DNA of 49,153 bases from Candidatus Gastranaerophilales bacterium (GTDB taxonomy: Bacteria > Cyanobacteriota > Vampirovibrionia > Gastranaerophilales > Gastranaerophilaceae): assembly GCA_947588745.1 (NCBI GenBank), contig CANPYW010000013.1:1-49153 (forward strand), written 5' to 3'. Both the position numbers and the translations under genes were made by a program. This document shows, one piece after another, positions 1-37,742 of the stretch. The number at the start of each line of letters is the position of its first letter. The stretch's first letter is position 1. A model generated the notes under the pieces. The model made no database searches. It was not told the origin of the DNA and saw nothing but the letters and a program-made list of their open reading frames with translations.

Positions 1-200
1 GACAAACCAATCCGCATTACGGGGCAAAAATAATATGTACAGACGGCAAAATCAAATCAAACAAACCCGCCGCATGAGCCACCTAAAACCGCAACAAAAA
101 ATTACGACAAACCAATCCGCATTACGGGGCAAAAATAATATGTACAGACGGCAAAATCAAACAAACCCGCCGCACGAGCCACCTAAAACCGCAACAAAAA
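1..200. repeat. Two-copy direct repeat, ~105-bp unit
   Basis: Copy 1 (1-105) starts GACAAACCAATCCGCATTAC and is followed directly by copy 2 (106-200). Copy 2 is almost identical but lacks one ATCAA pentamer and has a T-to-C change (CGCATGAGCC against CGCACGAGCC). The array runs off the left edge, so the copy number is unknown. One plus-strand frame is open through both copies to 304, giving a basic peptide with MYRRQNQ repeated. That frame runs through a terminator hairpin and the 5-bp deletion is not codon-sized, so a coding role is doubtful. Confidence 0.85.
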
Positions 201-259
201 CCCGCACAAGCATAAAACTCAACAATCAATTATTTTATAAAACTCATTTTCGTTTCTTT

Positions 260-293
260 AAAGTTCCGCAAGTACTGCGGAACTTTTATTTTG
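260..293 (+). terminator. Intrinsic terminator
   Basis: An 11-bp perfect stem, AAAGTTCCGCA (260-270) and TGCGGAACTTT (276-286), closes a 5-nt loop AGTAC and is followed by TATTTT. The T-rich side is downstream on the plus strand. It would therefore end a transcript entering from the left edge of the window, where the gene is not visible. Confidence 0.8.
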
Positions 294-309
294 ATGAGTG
301 TTAAATTTT

Positions 310-3320: not shown

Positions 3321-4301
3321 ATGTTTGAAGATATAAAAGAAAGCGGATGTTGTTCATTTCCCTTTTCAGTTGCGGAAATTGATTGGGACGGAAATGTATA
3401 TGGCTGTTGTGCAGCATATTTTATAGGTTATACTTTTGGAAATATTTTCGAACAATCTTTCGACGAAATATGGAATGGCCCAAAAGCACAGGAATTCCGC
3501 AGACAGTTCTTAGACAGAAATTTTAATCATTGTAATTTCTCCATTTGTCCTAAAGAATTTCATAAGGATATTAAACCTACTTTAATTGCTGAATATCCTA
3601 AGCGTGTTCAATTAAATTATGATTCTGTTTGTAATGCAAGATGTATATATTGTCGTGACCATCATTTTAAGAATGATGTTTCCCAGTTTGAAGCACATTT
3701 TGACGATATTATTGTACCGATACTTAAAAATGCGGAATTGGTAAATGTTACTGCTTCAGGCGAAGTTTTTGCAAGTAATTATGCAAAAAATTTGATACAA
3801 AAAATCGGTAAAATATATCCAAAACTTAAGTTCTATATTTATACAAATGGTATTTTATGTGATGAAAAGCATTTAAAAGAATTCGGTTTGTGGGATAGAG
3901 TTGATTATTATGTTGTTTCTTTACCTGCAATGACAAAAGAAACTTATGATAAAATTGTTCTTGAAGGTAATTTCGAAAATGTAATTAAAAATGTTAAGTT
4001 CTTAGGAAAACAAAAGAAAGAAAATAAAATTTCTAACTTAATTATTAATTATGTTGTTACATCATTAAATTACAAAGAAATGCCAATGATGGTTGACTTC
4101 GCAAGAGAAAATAATGCAACTGTAAGTTTTGTTACATTAAACAAATTGGAAAATAATAAAAATATTTATGATTCAATAGCGGTTGCTGAGGAATTTCATC
4201 CTGAACATAAAAAATATGTTGAGTTTATTAAAAATCCTATTTTTAAACAACCTCATATTAATAAAACAACTACATTTGATATAGTAAAAGAAACAGTCTA
4301 A
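3321..4301 (+). CDS. Radical SAM protein with N-terminal SPASM-like domain (copy 1)
   Basis: A 326-residue protein with two parts. The N-terminal part (1-80) looks like a SPASM/auxiliary Fe-S domain: C10/C11, GNVYGCC with C29-C30, GNIFEQSFDEIWN, then C71 and C76. The radical SAM core follows with CNARCIYC (C104, C108, C111, the CX3CX2C cluster ligands), then a SGE motif and YTNGI. SPASM domains normally follow the core, so this order is reversed. Family knowledge implies SAM cleavage to a 5'-deoxyadenosyl radical and a second cluster; the substrate is unknown. It is one of four paralogues at 3321-8104, and its stop is one base from the start of copy 2. No precursor-peptide gene is visible nearby. 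Confidence 0.85.
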   Translation: MFEDIKESGCCSFPFSVAEIDWDGNVYGCCAAYFIGYTFGNIFEQSFDEIWNGPKAQEFRRQFLDRNFNHCNFSICPKEFHKDIKPTLIAEYPKRVQLNYDSVCNARCIYCRDHHFKNDVSQFEAHFDDIIVPILKNAELVNVTASGEVFASNYAKNLIQKIGKIYPKLKFYIYTNGILCDEKHLKEFGLWDRVDYYVVSLPAMTKETYDKIVLEGNFENVIKNVKFLGKQKKENKISNLIINYVVTSLNYKEMPMMVDFARENNATVSFVTLNKLENNKNIYDSIAVAEEFHPEHKKYVEFIKNPIFKQPHINKTTTFDIVKETV

Positions 4302-4302
4302 T

Positions 4303-5292
4303 ATGATTGTAATGGCCTGCAAACAACCTTTTACCGCTATTGAAATTAATTCAAATGGTGATGTATTTACATGTTGTCCCAACTATATTAAAATGCGTAA
4401 AATTGGTAATATCTGGCAAAATACATTTGAAGAAATTTGGTATTCGGATTTTGCCAGAGAGCTTCGCAGCAAAATATTGAAAAATGATTTTTCATTATGT
4501 GATATGGATCTTTGCAGACAATATTCTTTGGCAATTATGAATGATGCAATAATTGATAATATGCCTTTGCCTCAGTATGTTACATTGGCTTATGATAAAG
4601 AGTGTAATTTATGTTGTATTACTTGCAGGGATAAAAAATATAATAATACTTCTGAGCAGATTGAATTGTATAATGAAAAAATTGATTCACTTTTACTTCC
4701 TTTGCTTACTGAGGCAAGAATATTGGCATTAAGTGGTTCTGGTGAAGCATTTTATTCAAAGCATAGTCGTTTACTTATACAAAAAGTTGCTGCGTATAAT
4801 AAACAATTAATGTTTAATATTAATACTAACGGGTTATTGTTCAATGAAGCGAATTGTAAAAAGCTTGGAATTTTAGGCAGAATAAATGAAGTTTTTGTAT
4901 CACTTCCTTCTATTAATGAGTCAACCTATTCAAAAATTCAGTTTGGTTCCATATTAAGTGTAGTACTTAGTAACATATCCGAAATGGCTAATATGCAAGC
5001 ACGCAAGCTTATAAAAAAAGTCACCATAAATATGGTGATTTCTAGTTTGAATTATAAAGAAATTCCGGCAATGGTTGAGTTTGCTAAAAATTTTGATATA
5101 GGAGTTACAATTTCTCAATATTATAATTGGGGAACTAATTTAGGAAAAAATTATCAAAAGCTTGCGGTTTGGCTTCCTGAAAACAGTGAATATGCTGATT
5201 TTAAACAGGTGTTAAAGCATACTGATTTAGATTATCCAAAATGTTATTGTTCTCATTTATTTTCCAAAATAGCCGGTAGGGTTTTATCCTGA
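4303..5292 (+). CDS. Radical SAM protein with N-terminal SPASM-like domain (copy 2)
   Basis: A 329-residue paralogue of the upstream gene with the same layout: C6, GDVFTCC (C24-C25), IGNIWQNTFEEIW, C66 and C71, then the radical SAM motif CNLCCITC (C101, C105, C108). A SGEAF motif and NTNGL follow. No ribosome site is obvious. The ATG at 4303 is one base after the previous stop, suggesting coupled translation; an alternative start is the ATG at 4312, which would better match the paralogues beginning M-x-F-C or M-A-C. The substrate is unknown. Sequence identity to copies 1, 3 and 4 is clearly lower outside the motifs, so the copies are diverged and not recent duplicates. Confidence 0.85.
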   Translation: MIVMACKQPFTAIEINSNGDVFTCCPNYIKMRKIGNIWQNTFEEIWYSDFARELRSKILKNDFSLCDMDLCRQYSLAIMNDAIIDNMPLPQYVTLAYDKECNLCCITCRDKKYNNTSEQIELYNEKIDSLLLPLLTEARILALSGSGEAFYSKHSRLLIQKVAAYNKQLMFNINTNGLLFNEANCKKLGILGRINEVFVSLPSINESTYSKIQFGSILSVVLSNISEMANMQARKLIKKVTINMVISSLNYKEIPAMVEFAKNFDIGVTISQYYNWGTNLGKNYQKLAVWLPENSEYADFKQVLKHTDLDYPKCYCSHLFSKIAGRVLS

Positions 5293-5363
5293 TTGATATT
5301 TATTTGCGTATTTATTTTCTTTATAGTTTAATATATAAGTTATTATTTTGTGGAGATTGAGTT

Positions 5364-6104
5364 ATGAATATAAAAGATTATCAGGTTGTATTGCTTGGTG
5401 TGATGATAGCTCTAGGTTCTGTAGTTTCTACGTATATTTTTTCAAAATCTATTATCGCTTTTCAAAAATTGCAAAATCAAACAATTAAAGTAACCGGTAG
5501 TGCGAGCAGAACTGTAAAGTCAGATTACTCTTCCTGGAATTTTAGTTTCTCTACTCAACAGCCTAATCTTAAATTGGGTTATGCAAAAATAATTGATGAT
5601 TCAAAGATTATTAAAGAATTTTTGATTTCAAAAGGGCTTGATGAATCTAATATTGATTTTAGTCAAATATCGAGTTATAAACTCTATAAAAGAGCTCCTA
5701 ACGGCTACAGTGATACTGATGAATTGAAAGGATATAATGTAAGCCGCAGTGTAACGGTTAAATCTTCAGATATAACAAAGTTAACAAATATATCAAAAGA
5801 TGCTGCTGCACTTGTTAATAAAGGCATTGATTTAACTTCAGATAATGTAAATTATTATATTTCCAATTTAGACAATTTAAAAATTGAAACTATTAAAGAT
5901 GCTGCTAAAAATGCAAAAGAAAGAGCAAATAGTCTTGTAAAAGGTACTAATGGGAAAATTGGTGTAATGACCAGTGCAAAAGTTGGTGTATTCCAAATAG
6001 TACCTATTGACTCAACGGCAGTAGAAGATTATGGCATTAATGATACATCTTCAATTGATAAAAAAGTTATAGCTACAGTAAATGCTACTTTTACTGTTAA
6101 GTAG
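5364..6104 (+). CDS. SIMPL-domain (DUF541) protein, membrane-anchored
   Basis: A 246-residue protein. An N-terminal hydrophobic segment (about residues 8-30, VVLLGVMIALGSVVSTYIF) is a signal anchor. It is followed by the SIMPL/DUF541 start (IKVTGSASRTVKSD) and the family's IETIKDAAKNAKERANSLVK stretch. SIMPL proteins are periplasmic or envelope-located and of ill-defined function; some are linked to oxidative or envelope stress. TGGAGA precedes the ATG. It lies between the two radical SAM pairs and its 3' end overlaps the convergent gene at 6097-7113 by 8 bp. Whether it works with the radical SAM proteins is not known. Confidence 0.85.
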   Translation: MNIKDYQVVLLGVMIALGSVVSTYIFSKSIIAFQKLQNQTIKVTGSASRTVKSDYSSWNFSFSTQQPNLKLGYAKIIDDSKIIKEFLISKGLDESNIDFSQISSYKLYKRAPNGYSDTDELKGYNVSRSVTVKSSDITKLTNISKDAAALVNKGIDLTSDNVNYYISNLDNLKIETIKDAAKNAKERANSLVKGTNGKIGVMTSAKVGVFQIVPIDSTAVEDYGINDTSSIDKKVIATVNATFTVK

Positions 6105-7113
6105 CTTTTGAACTGACACTTTCTATTAAGTCATATAATGCAGGCGAAAATTCATTCTTATATTGAATAACTAATGGATTATTTAAAACTCGCAGCAAGT
6201 CTTTGTGCAGAGGATGATTACTTTTAACTACATAAAGATTGTCGGCAATAGTATAAGAACAATTCTCCTGTCTTACTTCCCAGAAACGGGGTTGCACATT
6301 TAATTCTAGAGCTAATTTAATAAAATCAGGAATTTCAGTATAATTAAGCGATGTTACAACAAAATGAATATAGATAGGAAATTCGTAGGTCTTTTTCAAT
6401 TCCGCAAGTTCTCGTAAATTTTTTATTATTTTAGGAAAGAATATTTCACCGTTAGGAACAATTTTGCCATAAGTTTTTGCTGTAGTAGCGTGGAATGACA
6501 TACGTATTTTGGCTATTTTTTCAGGTGTTATATTTAATTCTTTAAAATTATTCTCATTGCAGAAAATACCATTTGTATGGAAATCAAATTTTAATTCCGG
6601 ATATTTTGCTGCGGCTTTTTTTATAACGAGCCTGCTGTGTCTTGAACCAAATGGGTCGCCCGCAGAATTGATAATGAGAACTTTAGCTCCTTGTAGAATC
6701 GGAAGGAAAAATGTGTCAATTTTGGAATTTAAGATTTCCAATTCTTCTTGTGTCATTCTGTTGACTTTATTTCTGCACATTTTACAAGCGATATTACATT
6801 CATAATCATAAACGAATTTAACTATTTTAGGATGTTCAAGCATAATAGGTGTGCAATCAGTATTAAAATCCGAAACAAAATTTTTCTGTTTCAGATAAGA
6901 ACAATTATCATAATCACATAAAGAATAATCATTATTTAATATTCTGGTACGTACATCTACTGCTTTTTCAGAATTCCATATTTCTTCAAAGGAATTTTGA
7001 CCTATATTTCCTATTGCATAATATTTATTCCAATTGGGACAACAGGTATAAACATCACCGTTTATGCCGATTTCAATTTCTTCAAAAGGTCTTTTGCAAA
7101 ATGTTTCACTCAT
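6097..7113 (-). CDS. Radical SAM protein with N-terminal SPASM-like domain (copy 3)
   Basis: A 338-residue paralogue. C6, GDVYTCC (C24-C25), IGNIGQNSFEEIWN, C66 and C71 form the N-terminal auxiliary-cluster domain. The core has CNIACKMC (C106, C110, C113), NSAGDPFGSRHSR and FHTNGI. It is the second gene of a minus-strand pair, 7 bp after copy 4, and converges on the SIMPL gene. The protein has no signal peptide and is presumably cytoplasmic. The substrate is unknown; the conserved SGEPF/AGDPF motif belongs to the radical SAM barrel and does not identify the reaction. Confidence 0.85.
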   Translation of the reverse strand: MSETFCKRPFEEIEIGINGDVYTCCPNWNKYYAIGNIGQNSFEEIWNSEKAVDVRTRILNNDYSLCDYDNCSYLKQKNFVSDFNTDCTPIMLEHPKIVKFVYDYECNIACKMCRNKVNRMTQEELEILNSKIDTFFLPILQGAKVLIINSAGDPFGSRHSRLVIKKAAAKYPELKFDFHTNGIFCNENNFKELNITPEKIAKIRMSFHATTAKTYGKIVPNGEIFFPKIIKNLRELAELKKTYEFPIYIHFVVTSLNYTEIPDFIKLALELNVQPRFWEVRQENCSYTIADNLYVVKSNHPLHKDLLRVLNNPLVIQYKNEFSPALYDLIESVSSKAT

Positions 7114-7120
7114 ATATCCT

Positions 7121-8104
7121 CTATTCTATTTCATTTTTTCTTAATATTTTCAATTCCGGAAATAAAACAACATTATCGCTGTCAAATGCCGGATTATTTA
7201 ATATGTTTATTAAATCCTTATGGTGTTTATGGTTGGCATTTATTATAGAAAATTTATCAAAATTTTTACCCACTTCGGTAACGTCATTTTTCCTTAATGC
7301 CCAAAATTCGGCTATTGCATTATTATTTTTTGCTAAATCAATAAACTTCAACATATCTTTGTAGTTTTCATCGTATACAACAAAAATCATTCTAAATTGG
7401 TTAATTAAATTATTCTCTTTCATTTTTGAATATAATTTAATATTTCGCATAACCTTATCATAATTGCCGTTTCTTACTACTTTATTGTATGTCCACCTTG
7501 TAGCACTGTGAAGTGAAAGAGTAATTATATCGATATTGTTGAATACATTTAATTCTTTAAGTTTTTCTTCGGTGCCTAAGATACCGTTTGTATGAAAATG
7601 AAATTTAAGATTTGGATATTTTTGTATTGCTTTTTTCATAATCATTGTTTCTTTATAGCTGGCAAATGGTTCGCCGCTACAGCCGAATCTTAAAAGTTTA
7701 GCATTTTTAAAAATAGGCAGCCAAATATTTTCAATTTCTTTTTCAAGATTATTTTTGTCATATTCTGTTTTAAAATTTTTATCACGGCAAATGCGGCATT
7801 TAACGTTGCAGGCATTATCGGAACTTATCGAAATTTCTTCGGGGTATTCGTTAATTGTTTCCGAAGTGTATGTCGGTGTTTCGTCGTTAATTTTTCTGTT
7901 ACATAAATCATTACAAAGTGAAAAATCAGAATTTATGATTAATTTTCTTAATTTTTTAATTTTTTCACCATTCCAAATTTCATCAAAAGAAGTTTTATAA
8001 ATATTACCGATTGAATAGTAATTTATAAACTGAGGGCAGCAATTATAGACATCTCCGGTTTCGTAAATTTCAATTCTGTTAAATGGCTGCGTACAAAATG
8101 ACAT
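7121..8104 (-). CDS. Radical SAM protein with N-terminal SPASM-like domain (copy 4)
   Basis: A 327-residue paralogue. C4, GDVYNCC (C22-C23), IGNIYKTSFDEIWN, C64 and C68 form the front auxiliary domain. The radical SAM motif is CNVKCRIC (C99, C103, C106), with CSGEPFASYKE and FHTNGI following. It is the first gene of the minus-strand pair, and GGAGAGA precedes the start. It is divergent from copy 5 at 8218, leaving a 113-bp shared promoter region. Copies 3 and 4 share more barrel motifs with each other (KYP-L-F-FHTNGI) than with copies 1 and 2. Confidence 0.85.
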   Translation of the reverse strand: MSFCTQPFNRIEIYETGDVYNCCPQFINYYSIGNIYKTSFDEIWNGEKIKKLRKLIINSDFSLCNDLCNRKINDETPTYTSETINEYPEEISISSDNACNVKCRICRDKNFKTEYDKNNLEKEIENIWLPIFKNAKLLRFGCSGEPFASYKETMIMKKAIQKYPNLKFHFHTNGILGTEEKLKELNVFNNIDIITLSLHSATRWTYNKVVRNGNYDKVMRNIKLYSKMKENNLINQFRMIFVVYDENYKDMLKFIDLAKNNNAIAEFWALRKNDVTEVGKNFDKFSIINANHKHHKDLINILNNPAFDSDNVVLFPELKILRKNEIE

Positions 8105-8217: not shown

Positions 8218-9276
8218 ATGTTCGATTTTATAAAAGGAATTATAAATTCACAAAGTAAAATGCAGCAAAGCACTGAAAATAATGAATCCGCAGAGTATTT
8301 ATCCTGCAAGCATTTGCATGGTGGTATAACATTTATGCATAAAGCATTTAGGACTTGTTGTTCTAATAATTTAGGTGTTACATTTGTTGATGATTACAAG
8401 GGTGAAGAAATCAATTGGAAAAAAATAGCCAAAATAAGAAGTAAAGTTATTGAAAATTGTAAAAAAGGCATTCTTCCAGAAAACTGTAAAGGTTGTGTTG
8501 ATTTAGAGTATAAAAACTGGGAAGAGCATAAATTAATCGATAACATTTATATTAATCATTGGGATCATTGTAACTGCGGGTGTGTATATTGCGTAGCGGG
8601 GCAATCTCAATTCTTGGTTTCAGAAACAAGACCCAGTAGATATTACAGATTATTTGAGCATATTCAAGAATTATACAATAACAATATGATATCAAAGGAT
8701 GTTCACGTTGAAATGGTGGGCGGTGATTTAACCGTTTTGGATGAAGCCGATGATATTATCAATTTGTGTTTAGACAATGGTGTAGGTGAAATGGCTTTTC
8801 ATTCATCTTGTATTTTTTATTCAAAAGGTATTGAAAGAGCATTAAAAGAAGCTCCGAGTGTAAGCTTGGATTTCTCGCTTGATTCAGCAGACAGATTGCT
8901 TTATAAAAAGATTAAGAGAATTGATGCTTTTGATAAGGTTGTTGACAATATAAAAAGATATATGAGCTGTTCTGAAAAAGCTAAAGAGGCTTTGATTGCA
9001 AAATATATAATTGTTGACGGACTTAATGATTCTGTTGAAGAAATCGATAAATGGTTAAAACTTATTCATTCTTTGGGTATAAAAATGGCTAAAGTTGATG
9101 TAAATTTCAGAAAATATTTCCCAGAATTTGGTCATTCAAATCCTACAGTTCCACAGCATTATTATGATATGATGGAACATTACAAAAAAACAATTGATGA
9201 ATTTGGAATACAGGATAGGTGCTGGGAATTTACAAAACGAGTTCTTAAAGAAGGCGGAATACCTAAAAATTCTTAA
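8218..9276 (+). CDS. Radical SAM protein, second family (N-terminal C/CC/CxxC domain), copy 5
   Basis: A 352-residue protein. The front domain has C30, paired C47-C48 (RTCC), the phrase KGEEINWKKI, then CKGC (C90, C93). The radical SAM core follows with HCNCGCVYC (C118, C122, C125 as CX3CX2C), a GGD motif and LDFSLDSAD. It is clearly homologous along its length to the protein at 35375-36418 (shared DYKGE-I-WKK, CKGC, NHW-x2-CNC). It resembles copies 1-4 in having candidate extra cluster ligands before the core. TTGGAGG gives a strong ribosome site. The substrate is unknown and there is no precursor-peptide gene beside it. A terminator follows. Confidence 0.83.
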   Translation: MFDFIKGIINSQSKMQQSTENNESAEYLSCKHLHGGITFMHKAFRTCCSNNLGVTFVDDYKGEEINWKKIAKIRSKVIENCKKGILPENCKGCVDLEYKNWEEHKLIDNIYINHWDHCNCGCVYCVAGQSQFLVSETRPSRYYRLFEHIQELYNNNMISKDVHVEMVGGDLTVLDEADDIINLCLDNGVGEMAFHSSCIFYSKGIERALKEAPSVSLDFSLDSADRLLYKKIKRIDAFDKVVDNIKRYMSCSEKAKEALIAKYIIVDGLNDSVEEIDKWLKLIHSLGIKMAKVDVNFRKYFPEFGHSNPTVPQHYYDMMEHYKKTIDEFGIQDRCWEFTKRVLKEGGIPKNS

Positions 9277-9311: not shown

Positions 9312-11330
9312 TTATTGTTCTTGACATCCAAAAGCGATGGTAACTTTTTCACGAGGGTTAACTGATGAAACTCTCATACCTTTCGGGTCAACTAAATATG
9401 TAAGTTCGTCACCTGTATATTGGAATAAGCCCATTGTACCTGATAAAGCTGTTCTTGTTAAATCAACCGGAGCTTTAACAATAGCTTTACCTACGTCAAC
9501 ATAGCTTCTTCCCGCAGCTTTAAATTGACCTTGGAATATTTCTCCCGTACCTACACCGATACCGCTTACAGTTTGTTCAACTGCATTACTTGCACTTACA
9601 ATTGCACCGCCGACGGTTCTTCCTACATCACCCAATAAACCGCCTGTCCAGGTGAATGGGAATTCAACCAAACGAGCAACTGCATTAGGCTTTTTGATTT
9701 TGTTAACCTGAGCCGTTAACACCTGGTTCGGTAATTGAGTTTTGCATTTGCCGAATTTAATCGTATTAAATGATAATTTTAATGCACCCTGACAATGTTT
9801 TGTAGGTCTTACGACTTCTAAAACTCGACCGTCTACTCTTGAACCGGCCGGGTATTCTATACCTCCTATAGTTACTGAATCTATAGTCGTAGCTGCAAAT
9901 CTGTCACCTACGTTAGCCGATTTGGCACTTATTTCATCGTTAAATGTTAATTGTAAAGTAGGAATAGTAACTGTTTCTTCGGCAGCATAATAAGCTTTAC
10001 GGGGTTGACATCCGCAATCTGCGGTTTTTACTTTATCATTACTGCTATAACCTAAAGCTACTCTTACATTTTCAAGCATAGACGCTATTTCTGCTCTGCT
10101 TGCATCTTTATTCGGTGCTATTTCATTCGGAGATGGGAATTCAGATATCGCACCCGTTTCGATTACTTTTGCTACAGGAATTTTTGCCCAGTTTGGAACG
10201 GTATTACCGTCACAGTAATGACTGATTATTTCGTTTGCTTTACATTCATCCATAGGACAGTTTATTCCTTTAGCCATAATCGAAAATGCTTCTGCTCTTG
10301 AAATAGGTTGATTAGGCTTAAATGTATTATTCGGGTATCCGGCCATTAAACCGTTAGCAACAGCTTTGGCAATGGTTTTATTTGCCCAGTGGTTTGGTGA
10401 AACATCGCTGAACATGTTGTTTGCACAGGTTACATCATCGTTAAGGTTTAATCCTTTAACAGCGAGTGTTGCCATTTCGGCTCTTGAAATAGGCAGGTTG
10501 GGTTTAAAAGTTCTGTCCGGATATCCTGCAATAATGTTATTTGCTGTTAATGAATTTATATCACAGCTTGCCCAGTAACCATCAGGTACATCTTCAAATG
10601 CACTTACAATAGGGGCTGCTGCACCCGTCATTGCAGAGTATTCAAACGGTTCCATATATTTTCTGGTAGCTTCAATACTTGTGTTTGTATGTATTTGAAC
10701 CGGACATCCGGCACCGTCTATATTCATAGGATTGCGGTCTACAGGAATACCTTGAAGGTATGGTGCATCATTCAAACAAGGCATTGGAGCTGCTGCACCT
10801 GTCATACTTCCGTCATTACATCCGCAGCCTATTGCAGGTTCCGGGTTTGAAACAGGTACGCCTTTAAAACCTGGAAGCGAGTCATCACCTAAATATAATC
10901 CGTTATTTCGTTCTCCGACTACCTGATTATTTCCGTATATTGCGTTTGGATATGCATATACTTGTTGTTCAAACTTTTTAGCATCGGATGTGCTCGGGCA
11001 TACTGCACAAGTTGGTGTACTTGGTGCCGGACATTGTGCTATCGGCGGACACTGGTTGCATTCATCTGCTATTGGCTGGCATGTGTCGCATTTCTTTTTC
11101 TTTTCGCAAGGTGCACAAGCTGATTTTTTATGACAAGAACAGCGGTCAATATCTTTATGGCATTTTGGACATTTTGCTGTTTTTGGTGTTACCGGGGAAG
11201 AACATAGCGGACAAGCTGCCACTCTATTATCCGACATATCAGTTGCTGTTTCTTGTGTAAAACCTGCATTAGTACCTGCTAATACGCCGATTGCTACAAC
11301 GGCTGCAAGTGTCATTTTGTTTAATTTCAT
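9312..11330 (-). CDS. Secreted SLH-domain surface protein with cysteine-rich CxxC region
   Basis: A 672-residue exported protein. The signal peptide is at 1-25 (KLNKMTLAAVVAIGVLAG). Residues 40-111 contain 15 cysteines, mostly as CxxC pairs (C40/43, C54/57, C72/75, C81/84, C91/94, C108/111), the first two like a zinc ribbon. An octapeptide-like MTGAAAP occurs twice (176 and 234). Three SLH repeats span about 245-293, 307-355 and 366-425 (IIAGYPDRTFKPNLPISRAE, LMAGYPNNTFKPNQPISRAE). A beta-rich region follows (455-545, with VGDRFAATTID and YPAGSRVDGRV). SLH repeats usually anchor proteins to peptidoglycan-linked polysaccharide; in cyanobacteria-like diderms they connect outer membrane and wall. 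AGGAGGA precedes the ATG. The role of the cysteines outside the cytoplasm is unclear. Confidence 0.88.
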   Translation of the reverse strand: MKLNKMTLAAVVAIGVLAGTNAGFTQETATDMSDNRVAACPLCSSPVTPKTAKCPKCHKDIDRCSCHKKSACAPCEKKKKCDTCQPIADECNQCPPIAQCPAPSTPTCAVCPSTSDAKKFEQQVYAYPNAIYGNNQVVGERNNGLYLGDDSLPGFKGVPVSNPEPAIGCGCNDGSMTGAAAPMPCLNDAPYLQGIPVDRNPMNIDGAGCPVQIHTNTSIEATRKYMEPFEYSAMTGAAAPIVSAFEDVPDGYWASCDINSLTANNIIAGYPDRTFKPNLPISRAEMATLAVKGLNLNDDVTCANNMFSDVSPNHWANKTIAKAVANGLMAGYPNNTFKPNQPISRAEAFSIMAKGINCPMDECKANEIISHYCDGNTVPNWAKIPVAKVIETGAISEFPSPNEIAPNKDASRAEIASMLENVRVALGYSSNDKVKTADCGCQPRKAYYAAEETVTIPTLQLTFNDEISAKSANVGDRFAATTIDSVTIGGIEYPAGSRVDGRVLEVVRPTKHCQGALKLSFNTIKFGKCKTQLPNQVLTAQVNKIKKPNAVARLVEFPFTWTGGLLGDVGRTVGGAIVSASNAVEQTVSGIGVGTGEIFQGQFKAAGRSYVDVGKAIVKAPVDLTRTALSGTMGLFQYTGDELTYLVDPKGMRVSSVNPREKVTIAFGCQEQ

Positions 11331-35374: not shown

Positions 35375-36418
35375 ATGCTTGATAAATTAAAGTCATTATT
35401 TAATAAAACTGAGAAAAAAACATATAAATATGTAAGTTGTGAGTATGTACAACATGGTTTTAATGTCGATTATGAAGATATAAAAATGTGTTGTTTTAAC
35501 TGTCATGAAGGTGGCGGCAGACAAATCCTTATAGATAAATATAAAGGTGAAATGATAGATTGGAAGAAGTTCTTTAAGCAAAAACGTGAAATGAGAGAAC
35601 TTAATAAACAAGGAATTATTCTTGAACGCTGTAAAGGTTGTATATTCTTAAAAGAACGTGAGTGGGATGATGATGATTATATAAATTATATGGTTTTCAA
35701 TCATTGGACTCAGTGCAATTGTAAATGCAAGTACTGTTTTACAAATGAACAATCGGATTTCTTTAATCAAAGAAAAAATTATAATATGTATCCTGTTATC
35801 AAAAAGCTTGCAGATATGGGAATGATTAGAGGCGGTGGAGAAATTGGCTTTGGTGGCGGAGAACCCGCAATTCTTCCTGAATTTGAACCTTTAGTTAATT
35901 TATTGCTTGATTCCGGCTGTGATAATATAAGAGTTCATTCTTCAGGTGTAAAGTATTCACAGGCAATAGAAAGAGGTTTGGAAGAAGGAAAACTTACTCT
36001 TGTTGTTTCTGTTGATTCAGGCACTCCAGAAACTTATGAGAATATCAAAAGAGTGAAATTTTTCGATACTGTATGGAAAAATCTTGAAATATATGCGTCT
36101 AAGCAAACAGAAAATAAATTTAAGGCTAAAACTAAATATATAATATATCCCGGATTTAATGATAATAAAGAAGAAGTAGATAAATTCTTTGAATTAAGCG
36201 ATAAAGCCGGAATAAGGAGTGTTGTTCTTGATGTTGAAGGCGGCTGGTATGAGCATAATAAATATAATGTTCCCGATTATATTTATGAACTTCTTGAGTA
36301 TGCTTGGCAAAAGTCGCAAGATTTAGGTATGCAAAATGTAGAATTATACGACAGGGCAAATCACATGAAATCTCATAAACAAGAATACATTAAAATGAGA
36401 GAAAATGTTTCTGAGTAA
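35375..36418 (+). CDS. Radical SAM protein, second family, copy 6, coupled to a MATE exporter
   Basis: A 347-residue homologue of the protein at 8218-9276. The front domain has C22, C39-C40 (KMCC), DKYKGEMIDWKK and CKGC (C86, C89). The core has CNCKCKYC (C114, C118, C121), FGGGEP and VVSVDSGTPETYENI. The substrate is unknown. It ends 14 bp inside the start of the MATE transporter gene, so the two are translationally coupled. This suggests, but does not show, that the transporter moves a product of this enzyme. AAGGA lies upstream of the ATG. It is also 10 bp downstream of hisH. Confidence 0.83.
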   Translation: MLDKLKSLFNKTEKKTYKYVSCEYVQHGFNVDYEDIKMCCFNCHEGGGRQILIDKYKGEMIDWKKFFKQKREMRELNKQGIILERCKGCIFLKEREWDDDDYINYMVFNHWTQCNCKCKYCFTNEQSDFFNQRKNYNMYPVIKKLADMGMIRGGGEIGFGGGEPAILPEFEPLVNLLLDSGCDNIRVHSSGVKYSQAIERGLEEGKLTLVVSVDSGTPETYENIKRVKFFDTVWKNLEIYASKQTENKFKAKTKYIIYPGFNDNKEEVDKFFELSDKAGIRSVVLDVEGGWYEHNKYNVPDYIYELLEYAWQKSQDLGMQNVELYDRANHMKSHKQEYIKMRENVSE

Positions 36419-37742
36419 CTGCTGTAATAATTATAAATATTATTTTCGTGAACTTTTAATTCTTTCTGTGCCTATATTAATAGGAAATTTAGGTCAGACG
36501 TTAATAGGAACAACAGATGTATTAGTTGTTGCAAGGTATGGAATACAAGCTCTTGCGGCAGTTAGTATAGCTAATTCAATTTTGTTTACTATATTTATAT
36601 TTGGTATAGGGTTTCTTGCTTCAATATCAATTATTTTGTCAAATAAAAGAGGTAAAAAAGAGAAGATTAAACATTATTTATTTCCAAGTATTTTATTTTC
36701 AATTTTTGCTTCGGTAATTTTTATGTTAATTTGTTATTCGACTGTTTTTTTCATAGATAAAGCTGGTTTTGACAGTTCGCTTGTACCTTTAATCAAAAAT
36801 TATATAAAAATCGTTTCATTTTCATTAGTCGGAATTTTTGTTTATCAGGGTTTAAAAGAATTTCTTCAAGCCTACGAAATTGTAAAATTCCCAAACTATG
36901 TGCTTTTATTTTCAGTTATTGTAAATTTAATACTCGATGTAACATTTGTTTTCGGTTATGGCGTAATTCCTCAAATGGGCGTTAAGGGTGCTGCACTTGC
37001 AACATTGACTGTTAGAACATTAATGGGAATTGTAATGCTTATTTATGTTTTCAGATTTATCAATTTTAAAGTCAGGATAGATAAGACTTATTATAAAAAT
37101 ATTATAAAAATTGGCTGTCCGATAGGAATTGCTTTGACGTTTGAGTTTTTAGCTTTTAATATTATAACTATCCTTGTAGGTCGTGAAGCTTGGGTTCTAT
37201 CAGCAGTTCACAGTATTTTAATTACAATATCTTCAGCTACATTTATGGTTCCTTTAGCTGTCTCTACTGCATTATCCGTAAAAGTTGCATATTACTTTGG
37301 TGCAAAAAGGTTAAAGGAATTAAAATCGTATTCTGTTGCAGGGGTAATTATGGGAGCAGGGTTTATGGCATTAGCTGCAATAATATTAGCAATATTTCCC
37401 GTTCAATTAATCAAATTATTTACAGATAATATTGAAGTTATAAAAATATCTATTCCCATAGTCAGTATTGTAGCTGCGTATCAGATATTTGACGGATTGC
37501 AAGTTGTTTTAAGCGGTATTTTAAAAGGATTTAAAAGAACTAAAATCGTTTCTGTTTCTGTAATTTGTGGGTATTGGGTAATCGGTGCTCCAATAGCTTA
37601 TTTATTGGTTGAAAAATTTGCTTTATCATTGCGAGGATATTGGATTGCTCTGGCATTATCGCTATTTTCAATCGGATTTATACAGTCTGTATTTATAAAA
37701 AAAGAGTTTTCCAGTTTCAAATGTATAGCCATTGACAATTAA
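36405..37742 (+). CDS. MATE-family efflux transporter
   Basis: A 445-residue membrane protein with about 12 hydrophobic segments in two similar halves, as in MATE proteins. Family features are LSVPILIGNLGQTLIGTTD at the start of helix 1, GVKGAALAT before the mid-loop, GCPIGIALTFEF opening the second half, and VVLSGILKGFKRTK. MATE proteins export cationic drugs or metabolites, or flip lipid-linked substrates, in exchange for H+ or Na+. The substrate here is unknown. Overlap with the upstream radical SAM gene points to a shared function. Confidence 0.9.
   Translation: MFLSNCCNNYKYYFRELLILSVPILIGNLGQTLIGTTDVLVVARYGIQALAAVSIANSILFTIFIFGIGFLASISIILSNKRGKKEKIKHYLFPSILFSIFASVIFMLICYSTVFFIDKAGFDSSLVPLIKNYIKIVSFSLVGIFVYQGLKEFLQAYEIVKFPNYVLLFSVIVNLILDVTFVFGYGVIPQMGVKGAALATLTVRTLMGIVMLIYVFRFINFKVRIDKTYYKNIIKIGCPIGIALTFEFLAFNIITILVGREAWVLSAVHSILITISSATFMVPLAVSTALSVKVAYYFGAKRLKELKSYSVAGVIMGAGFMALAAIILAIFPVQLIKLFTDNIEVIKISIPIVSIVAAYQIFDGLQVVLSGILKGFKRTKIVSVSVICGYWVIGAPIAYLLVEKFALSLRGYWIALALSLFSIGFIQSVFIKKEFSSFKCIAIDN

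Follow-up and report, generated by a model that had tools for sequence, protein, structure and literature searches.

An expanded family of radical S-adenosylmethionine proteins with a permuted, N-terminal twitch domain in one Gastranaerophilales genus

The locus and its genes

The DNA described here, called the window below, is a stretch of 49,153 nucleotides from contig CANPYW010000013.1 of a Candidatus Gastranaerophilales bacterium (GenBank assembly GCA_947588745.1). Between positions 3,321 and 8,104 it contains four genes for radical S-adenosylmethionine (SAM) proteins, which we refer to as type A and in which a twitch domain precedes the radical SAM core. Two other window genes encode a second kind of radical SAM protein, type B, and both kinds are expanded in the source genome. 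The best-supported reading is that types A and B form a family of envelope-directed radical SAM enzymes that tailor sugars or small molecules and whose layout is BtrN-like but permuted. The genes are listed in Table 1.

Table 1. Coordinates of the window genes discussed in the text
Feature	Position	Strand	Remarks
Type A radical SAM protein 1	3321..4301	+	326 aa; N-terminal twitch 3351-3536, then CX3CX2C
Type A radical SAM protein 2	4303..5292	+	329 aa; N-terminal twitch 4318-4500
SIMPL-domain gene	5364..6104	+	between the two type A pairs; PF04402 90.6 bits
Type A radical SAM protein 3	6097..7113	-	338 aa; N-terminal twitch 6901-7098
Type A radical SAM protein 4	7121..8104	-	327 aa; N-terminal twitch 7907-8095
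Type B radical SAM protein	8218..9276	+	352 aa; C30, C47, C90, C93 before CX3CX2C
Second type B radical SAM protein	35375..36418	+	347 aa
MATE-family exporter	36405..37742	+	PF01554 170 bits; 14-nt overlap with the type B gene 35375-36418

A preliminary description of this DNA had reported four radical SAM paralogues with a SPASM-like domain ahead of the core, arranged as two codirectional pairs that face each other, and both statements are correct. The Pfam model PF13186 (SPASM) scores above its cut-off of 21.5 bits at the front of all four type A proteins, namely 57.5 bits (residues 11-72), 43 bits (residues 6-66), 50.9 bits (residues 6-71) and 46.6 bits (residues 4-65) in gene order, and the CX3CX2C motif follows C-terminal of the front domain in all four. 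With E values of 1.6e-15 to 5.5e-11, the match is not due to chance. The front motif that the paralogues were said to share is variable: protein 1 has GNVY, and protein 2 has GDVF and EIWY. The two type B proteins were not listed in that description.

The core model PF04055 (Radical_SAM) is above its cut-off in proteins 1 (35.5 bits) and 4 (54.7 bits), under it in protein 3 (E 0.057), and has no listed match at E<=1 in protein 2. The best of the other radical SAM profiles reach E values of 8e-17, 1.4e-17 (TIGR04317), 9.1e-17 and 3.5e-19 in gene order, all under the models' own cut-offs. Protein 1 scores 404 bits against the type A profile, in whose alignment it is itself a row. By motif and core profile, the type A proteins of the window belong to the radical SAM superfamily.

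The N-terminal twitch domain

Full SPASM enzymes, such as PqqE, AlbA and anSME, have the core first, and their SPASM domain has seven cysteines and two auxiliary clusters. The front domain of type A resembles theirs in being covered by PF13186, but types A and B have four conserved front cysteines rather than seven, and the full SPASM model TIGR04085 gives the window type A proteins only 16-20 bits against a cut-off of 27. The front domain corresponds to a half-SPASM, or twitch, whose conserved cysteines number four. Judged by their sequences, type A proteins are twitch enzymes in permuted form and do not count among the full SPASM enzymes.

In an alignment of 71 type A rows, C6, C24, C71 and the three core cysteines are invariant and C66 is present in 70 rows, whereas C25, the second cysteine of the "CC" pair, is kept in only 55. 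Therefore, C6, C24, C66 and C71 are the likely ligands; in protein 3 these are the candidate cluster ligands, with C106, C110 and C113 in the core. All four front cysteines occur in 70 of the 71 type A rows and in 29 of 29 type B rows, where the core motif is conserved as well. Both sets of rows were chosen by motif, so that C6, C24 and the core cysteines were partly preset. The count was repeated on rows chosen by profile score to offset this selection, and the four cysteines were found in 9/10 type A and 38/39 type B proteins of the source genome (47/49 together, with the core cysteines in 49/49), in 110/112 other type A proteins and in 137/142 other type B proteins. Several of the exceptions are proteins that are cut at contig ends or misaligned. 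These cysteines most likely bind one [4Fe-4S] cluster in the front twitch.

A search of the PDB with the type A profile found BtrN, a twitch radical SAM dehydrogenase of butirosin synthesis (PDB 4m7s, 4m7t), as the best match in both domains (E 1.1e-21), in two stretches and in swapped order. Profile positions 4-79 align to the C-terminal twitch of BtrN and positions 89-212 to its core, that is, BtrN has the core and then the twitch, whereas type A has the twitch and then the core. The CX9-15GX4C...C...C twitch pattern is common to both, except that type A has the pair C66-x4-C71 where BtrN has CxxC. The reaction typical of BtrN-like twitch dehydrogenases is a two-electron oxidation of an amino-cyclitol or sugar. 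In excerpts of PMC9012708, the auxiliary cluster of BtrN is given four cysteine ligands and a likely role as electron acceptor in a two-electron oxidation, and SPASM and twitch domains are described as C-terminal extensions. The type A and B family offers a natural way to find out whether an auxiliary cluster can function when it is provided from the N-terminal side.

Known models and the relationship of types A and B

The preliminary description had also proposed an undescribed radical SAM subfamily. For the domain order this claim fails because the NCBIfam model NF033640 (N_Twi_rSAM, "twitch domain-containing radical SAM protein") already describes an N-terminal twitch followed by the core. 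On the other hand, the window proteins are far under the cut-off of that model, with 49.4, 54, 51.2 and 52.4 bits against 170. NF033640 matches them from residue 2-10 on and matches fetched homologues over both domains; one of the nine proteins compared with it, a fetched Bacteroidetes homologue, passed the cut-off (181.8 vs 170 bits). A twitch ahead of the core is present in all four window type A proteins and, by motif, in 60 of 76 fetched loci. Searches of an open-licence library listed no paper on the N-terminal-twitch order, on the window family, on type B or on the expansion, and within that library "uncharacterised" still holds. The striking part is the expansion.

A phage model, PHROG phrog_14086 (radical SAM domain-containing protein, with no function named), matches residues 4-283 of protein 3 in the same domain order (E 7.4e-12); it matched one of four proteins given, two of them type A and two others. 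As to a phage origin, the analysis covered 31 IMG/VR loci and one protein, which had no match in the phage collection.

Comparison of the type A and type B profiles with hhalign gives an E value of 7.9e-17 over a span from the front cysteines through the core, and on this alignment type B is a sister family of type A with the same four front cysteines. Pfam reports only Radical_SAM and no SPASM domain in the window type B protein 8218-9276, and the one type B protein compared with further models matches general radical SAM models only, below their cut-offs. The second type B protein scores 134.5 bits against the type B N-terminal profile, of which it is a row. Type B is a single group (support 100/100) in a tree built from 73 cores; type A clusters with Rickettsiales, Desulfuromonadales, Bacteriovorax, Geomonas and other records (97/87), and the NF033640-like Bacteroidetes proteins (L077, L079, L083, L098) are separate from it.

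The match of the type B core to tetraether synthase (E 1.6e-10), about as good as that to a sulfatase maturase (3e-10), raises the possibility that the substrates are membrane lipids or some other metabolite that is not a sugar. MATE carriers, one of which overlaps the second type B gene, export many small molecules, which would also suit such a role. However, the tetraether synthase match is confined to the core and no better than that to the sulfatase maturase, so we did not retain this link, and no lipid-synthesis gene is prominent among the families of the 123 neighbors described below. We think a lipid or other non-sugar substrate rather unlikely.

Expansion and distribution

At 94% completeness, the source genome of 2.0 Mb contains 22 matches to SPASM, and in 10 cases the match lies ahead of a core. 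It encodes 10 type A proteins, 39 type B proteins and 23 matches to an SGNH-like membrane protein, every candidate having been scored for the latter two. The A and B genes are grouped in 19 clusters, the smallest of one gene and the largest of 10, and a type B gene is located within 5 kb of nine of the 10 type A genes (expected 0.97). Contig C63 consists of nearly nothing other than A, B and SGNH-like genes, and others of these genes are located among housekeeping genes. The longest pure type B array seen has five genes in tandem on one strand (C1:29960-34399).

When 146 genomes of the order were compared, the same six of the seven listed genomes of one genus proved to combine strong matches to type A, type B and the SGNH-like proteins, while types A and B are at most weak in the other 139, apart from one stop-broken type A copy in genome G007. 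The closest relatives carry the name Candidatus Gastranaerophilales. The strong type A matches are those below 1e-20; with weaker ones included, type A occurs in 14 of the 146 genomes. Type B occurs in at least 12, with 16 to at least 32 matches in each of the same six genomes and one or two weak matches in each of six others, and SGNH-like proteins in at least eight, namely the same six plus G059 and G120. At least 11 of 292 genomes drawn across the phylum have type B. These numbers are lower bounds since at most 15 (SGNH-like) and 32 (type B) candidates per genome were scored in the order and at most 16 across the phylum. Genome G124, of the same genus and 96% complete, has no type A, type B or SGNH-like match. 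The six genomes share ancestry, and therefore the joint distribution represents one or a few events and not six independent ones.

Each of the 10 type A proteins of the source genome is closer to a protein elsewhere (48-91% identity) than to any of its own paralogues (36-42%), which indicates that the copies are old and distinct. The same is true of 21 of 37 type B proteins, a biased count, as the only type B relatives retrieved were those located next to type A genes.

The window type A genes are accessory insertions because the nusA-SIMPL site varies among genomes. Ten nusA sites were examined, two of which (G123 and G001) end too early to be read. The nusA and SIMPL genes are adjacent in G128 and separated by two genes in G105, with no type A gene in either case; G109 has one type A gene beyond the SIMPL gene, and the metagenome-assembled genome (MAG) at L024 has two between SIMPL and nusA, a tandem pair with 67% identity to protein 3 and 67% to protein 4, respectively. 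Since nusA and SIMPL are neighbors without type A in G128 and G105, we rejected SIMPL as a functional partner and regard it as a bystander and old neighbor of nusA.

This variability, with nusA-SIMPL uninterrupted in G128, might also be expected if the family were dispersed and mostly selfish, its biochemical role being conserved slightly or not at all, as might the single genes and short arrays between housekeeping genes. A further case is found on contig C17 of the source genome, where a SucD-like protein (identified by eye) continues in frame into type B (607 aa; L141:2881-4704, minus strand); we took it as a run-on insertion at the end of a gene and not as a functional clue. Such a family would hardly keep its core cysteines in 49 of 49 proteins and be free of internal stop codons in every one of its type A (10) and type B (39) genes, and the greater similarity of type A copies to relatives in other MAGs than to paralogues also speaks against it. 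We consider a selfish family very unlikely.

Internal stops do occur in two SGNH-like matches of the source genome (C3:28435-29349 and C4:47787-48764) and in the type A match of G007 (C2:79813-80154), the only strong one outside the genus; this suggests decaying copies or draft errors.

Fusions and neighboring genes

Several A and B genes are fused to genes of other families. Three MAGs encode a fusion of type A and an SGNH-like protein, in which the SGNH profile matches residues 330-646 with an E value of about 1e-77, and on contig C63 a type A and an SGNH-like gene overlap. Type B and a MATE exporter are in one frame in G128 and G105 (L169:3040-5319 and L170:1250-3544; PF01554 162 bits in the first, the one checked with Pfam), and the type B-MATE pair of the window is the unfused version of the same families. 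In G045 and G073 (genus g7), a type B relative is fused to a C-terminal hexapeptide transferase stretch, which was called by Pfam in the G045 fusion, the one checked, where the capsule gene PGA_cap adjoins. A family 2 glycosyltransferase is encoded next to another type B gene (L172), and in the source genome an MBOAT acyltransferase gene and one SGNH-like gene are convergent neighbors. A separate observation is a type A protein in one frame with a second, core-first radical SAM protein (L054:6876-8810, plus strand; 645 aa, open at the contig end).

Sixteen homologues outside the order have 123 neighbors, of which 80 were hand-picked and scanned first and the remaining 43 afterwards. They include 21 Radical_SAM matches and three GDSL hydrolases, as well as glycosyltransferases, Caps_synth, polysaccharide pyruvyl transferase, GDP-mannose dehydratase, CMP transferase and UDP-GlcNAc epimerase.

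In the SGNH-like alignment of 23 rows, the cysteine of FGC is kept in 21, the following serine, which is the usual nucleophile, in 15 and the His-Pro of the D-x-H-P end motif in 21-22. Because only 15 of the 23 have the serine, about a third of these proteins may not be hydrolases. The better conservation of the cysteine (21/23 vs 15/23), the fusion and overlap with type A and the shared distribution could also mean that types A and B modify the SGNH-like proteins at this cysteine, as anaerobic sulfatase maturases do with sulfatases. Against this, a GCS sequence is also present in two of the four SGNH-like proteins of G059 and G120 (one has GAS and one was not read), two genomes without a type A match at 1e-10 or a type B match at 1e-8, which weakens the cysteine as a modification site. 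Most SGNH-like genes of the source genome are also not near A or B genes, and we regard modification of the SGNH-like proteins as highly improbable.

Characterised SPASM enzymes mostly act on peptides. Types A and B might accordingly be maturases of ribosomally synthesized and post-translationally modified peptides (RiPPs), that is, twitch enzymes that cross-link or epimerise residues of peptides encoded elsewhere in the genome, and peptide maturases are among the weak profile matches (WgkB, E 6.9e-12; SkfB in the PDB, 4.2e-11). The preliminary description saw no small precursor-peptide gene beside the paralogues, and this extends to 344 A and B genes, a number that includes duplicates because loci overlap on shared contigs. 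The gaps beside the window type A genes are 128, 1, 71, -8, 7 and 113 bp, which leaves little space for a precursor gene, and the 435 gaps flanking the 344 genes have a median of 19 bp, with 90% under 150 bp. When these neighborhoods were compared for a shared small peptide gene, as had been proposed, none of the 280 candidate small open reading frames (ORFs) in them belonged to a family spanning more than two loci, apart from a low-complexity group present at four; precursor genes elsewhere were not searched. Types A and B thus lack the conserved precursor gene beside the maturase that is typical of RiPP systems, as far as their immediate neighborhoods are concerned, and the proteins to which they are fused are of the membrane, exporter and acyltransferase kinds. 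A RiPP role is unlikely in our view, and the earlier suggestion that the enzymes act on something other than a neighboring peptide is supported by the fusions and neighborhoods.

Proposed function

The shared phylogenetic profile of type A, type B and the SGNH-like proteins, their fusions and the glycan genes among the neighbors support a role in surface-sugar chemistry, and the fusions and neighbors suggest that types A and B tailor surface glycans. More specifically, we give about an even chance to the idea that they are N-terminal-twitch radical SAM enzymes with a swapped BtrN layout that oxidize a sugar of the cell surface or a small, exported molecule of a related kind.

The sequences themselves show the architecture, the conserved cysteines, the homology to the twitch of BtrN, the expansion, the fusions and the neighbors; for cluster binding, redox role, substrate and reaction we infer the following scheme. 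The CX3CX2C cluster would cleave SAM, and the 5'-deoxyadenosyl radical would abstract hydrogen from a carbon atom in a sugar or cyclitol. With the second electron passing to the twitch cluster, the outcome would be a two-electron oxidation to a ketone or imine, on which other enzymes would act. As substrate we consider most likely a surface sugar linked to a nucleotide or lipid, or else a small molecule that is related to it and exported. Presumably, SGNH-like and hexapeptide O-acyl enzymes would process it further, and carriers of the MATE/flippase type would export it. The approximately 49 divergent copies would differ in specificity and jointly diversify the cell surface.

Several observations weigh against this scheme. 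The oxidation step is proposed solely by analogy with BtrN, and excerpts of PMC9012708 note that other twitch enzymes, for example MoaA, do different chemistry. The neighbor counts at the 16 loci have no background set for comparison and include non-glycan genes as well (asparagine synthase, pyruvate kinase, Dus and transporters), and no glycan gene neighbors the type A genes of the window. In the source genome, SGNH-like genes are nearer to A and B genes than expected by chance only weakly, 2 of 23 being within 1.5 kb (p 0.27) and 6 of 23 within 5 kb (p 0.026). The SGNH assignment itself is weak, with a best PDB E value of 0.24 and a weak GDSL match in one of four proteins given.

Radical SAM enzymes attack C-H bonds that are out of reach for most enzymes, and some 49 divergent, permuted copies in 2 Mb could yield new sugar, lipid or peptide chemistry. 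We tentatively suggest, with clearly less than an even chance of being right, that one gut genus of the Gastranaerophilales has a combinatorial surface chemistry made of about 50 permuted-twitch radical SAM enzymes and about 20 SGNH-like acyl enzymes. With each single-gene unit, a glycan or an exported molecule would gain one C-H oxidation, epimerisation or cross-link, and species would differ in their set of genes.

Other features of the window

Two further observations concern the window itself. Adjoining the type B gene 8218-9276, positions 9312-11330 on the minus strand encode a large protein that has a cysteine-rich front and, by eye, repeats resembling S-layer homology units. Short ORFs at window positions 35-304 (plus strand) and at L134:5777-6025 (plus strand) have the repeated words MYRRQNQ and TNPPHEPPK in common and are probably an interspersed DNA repeat of the source genome.

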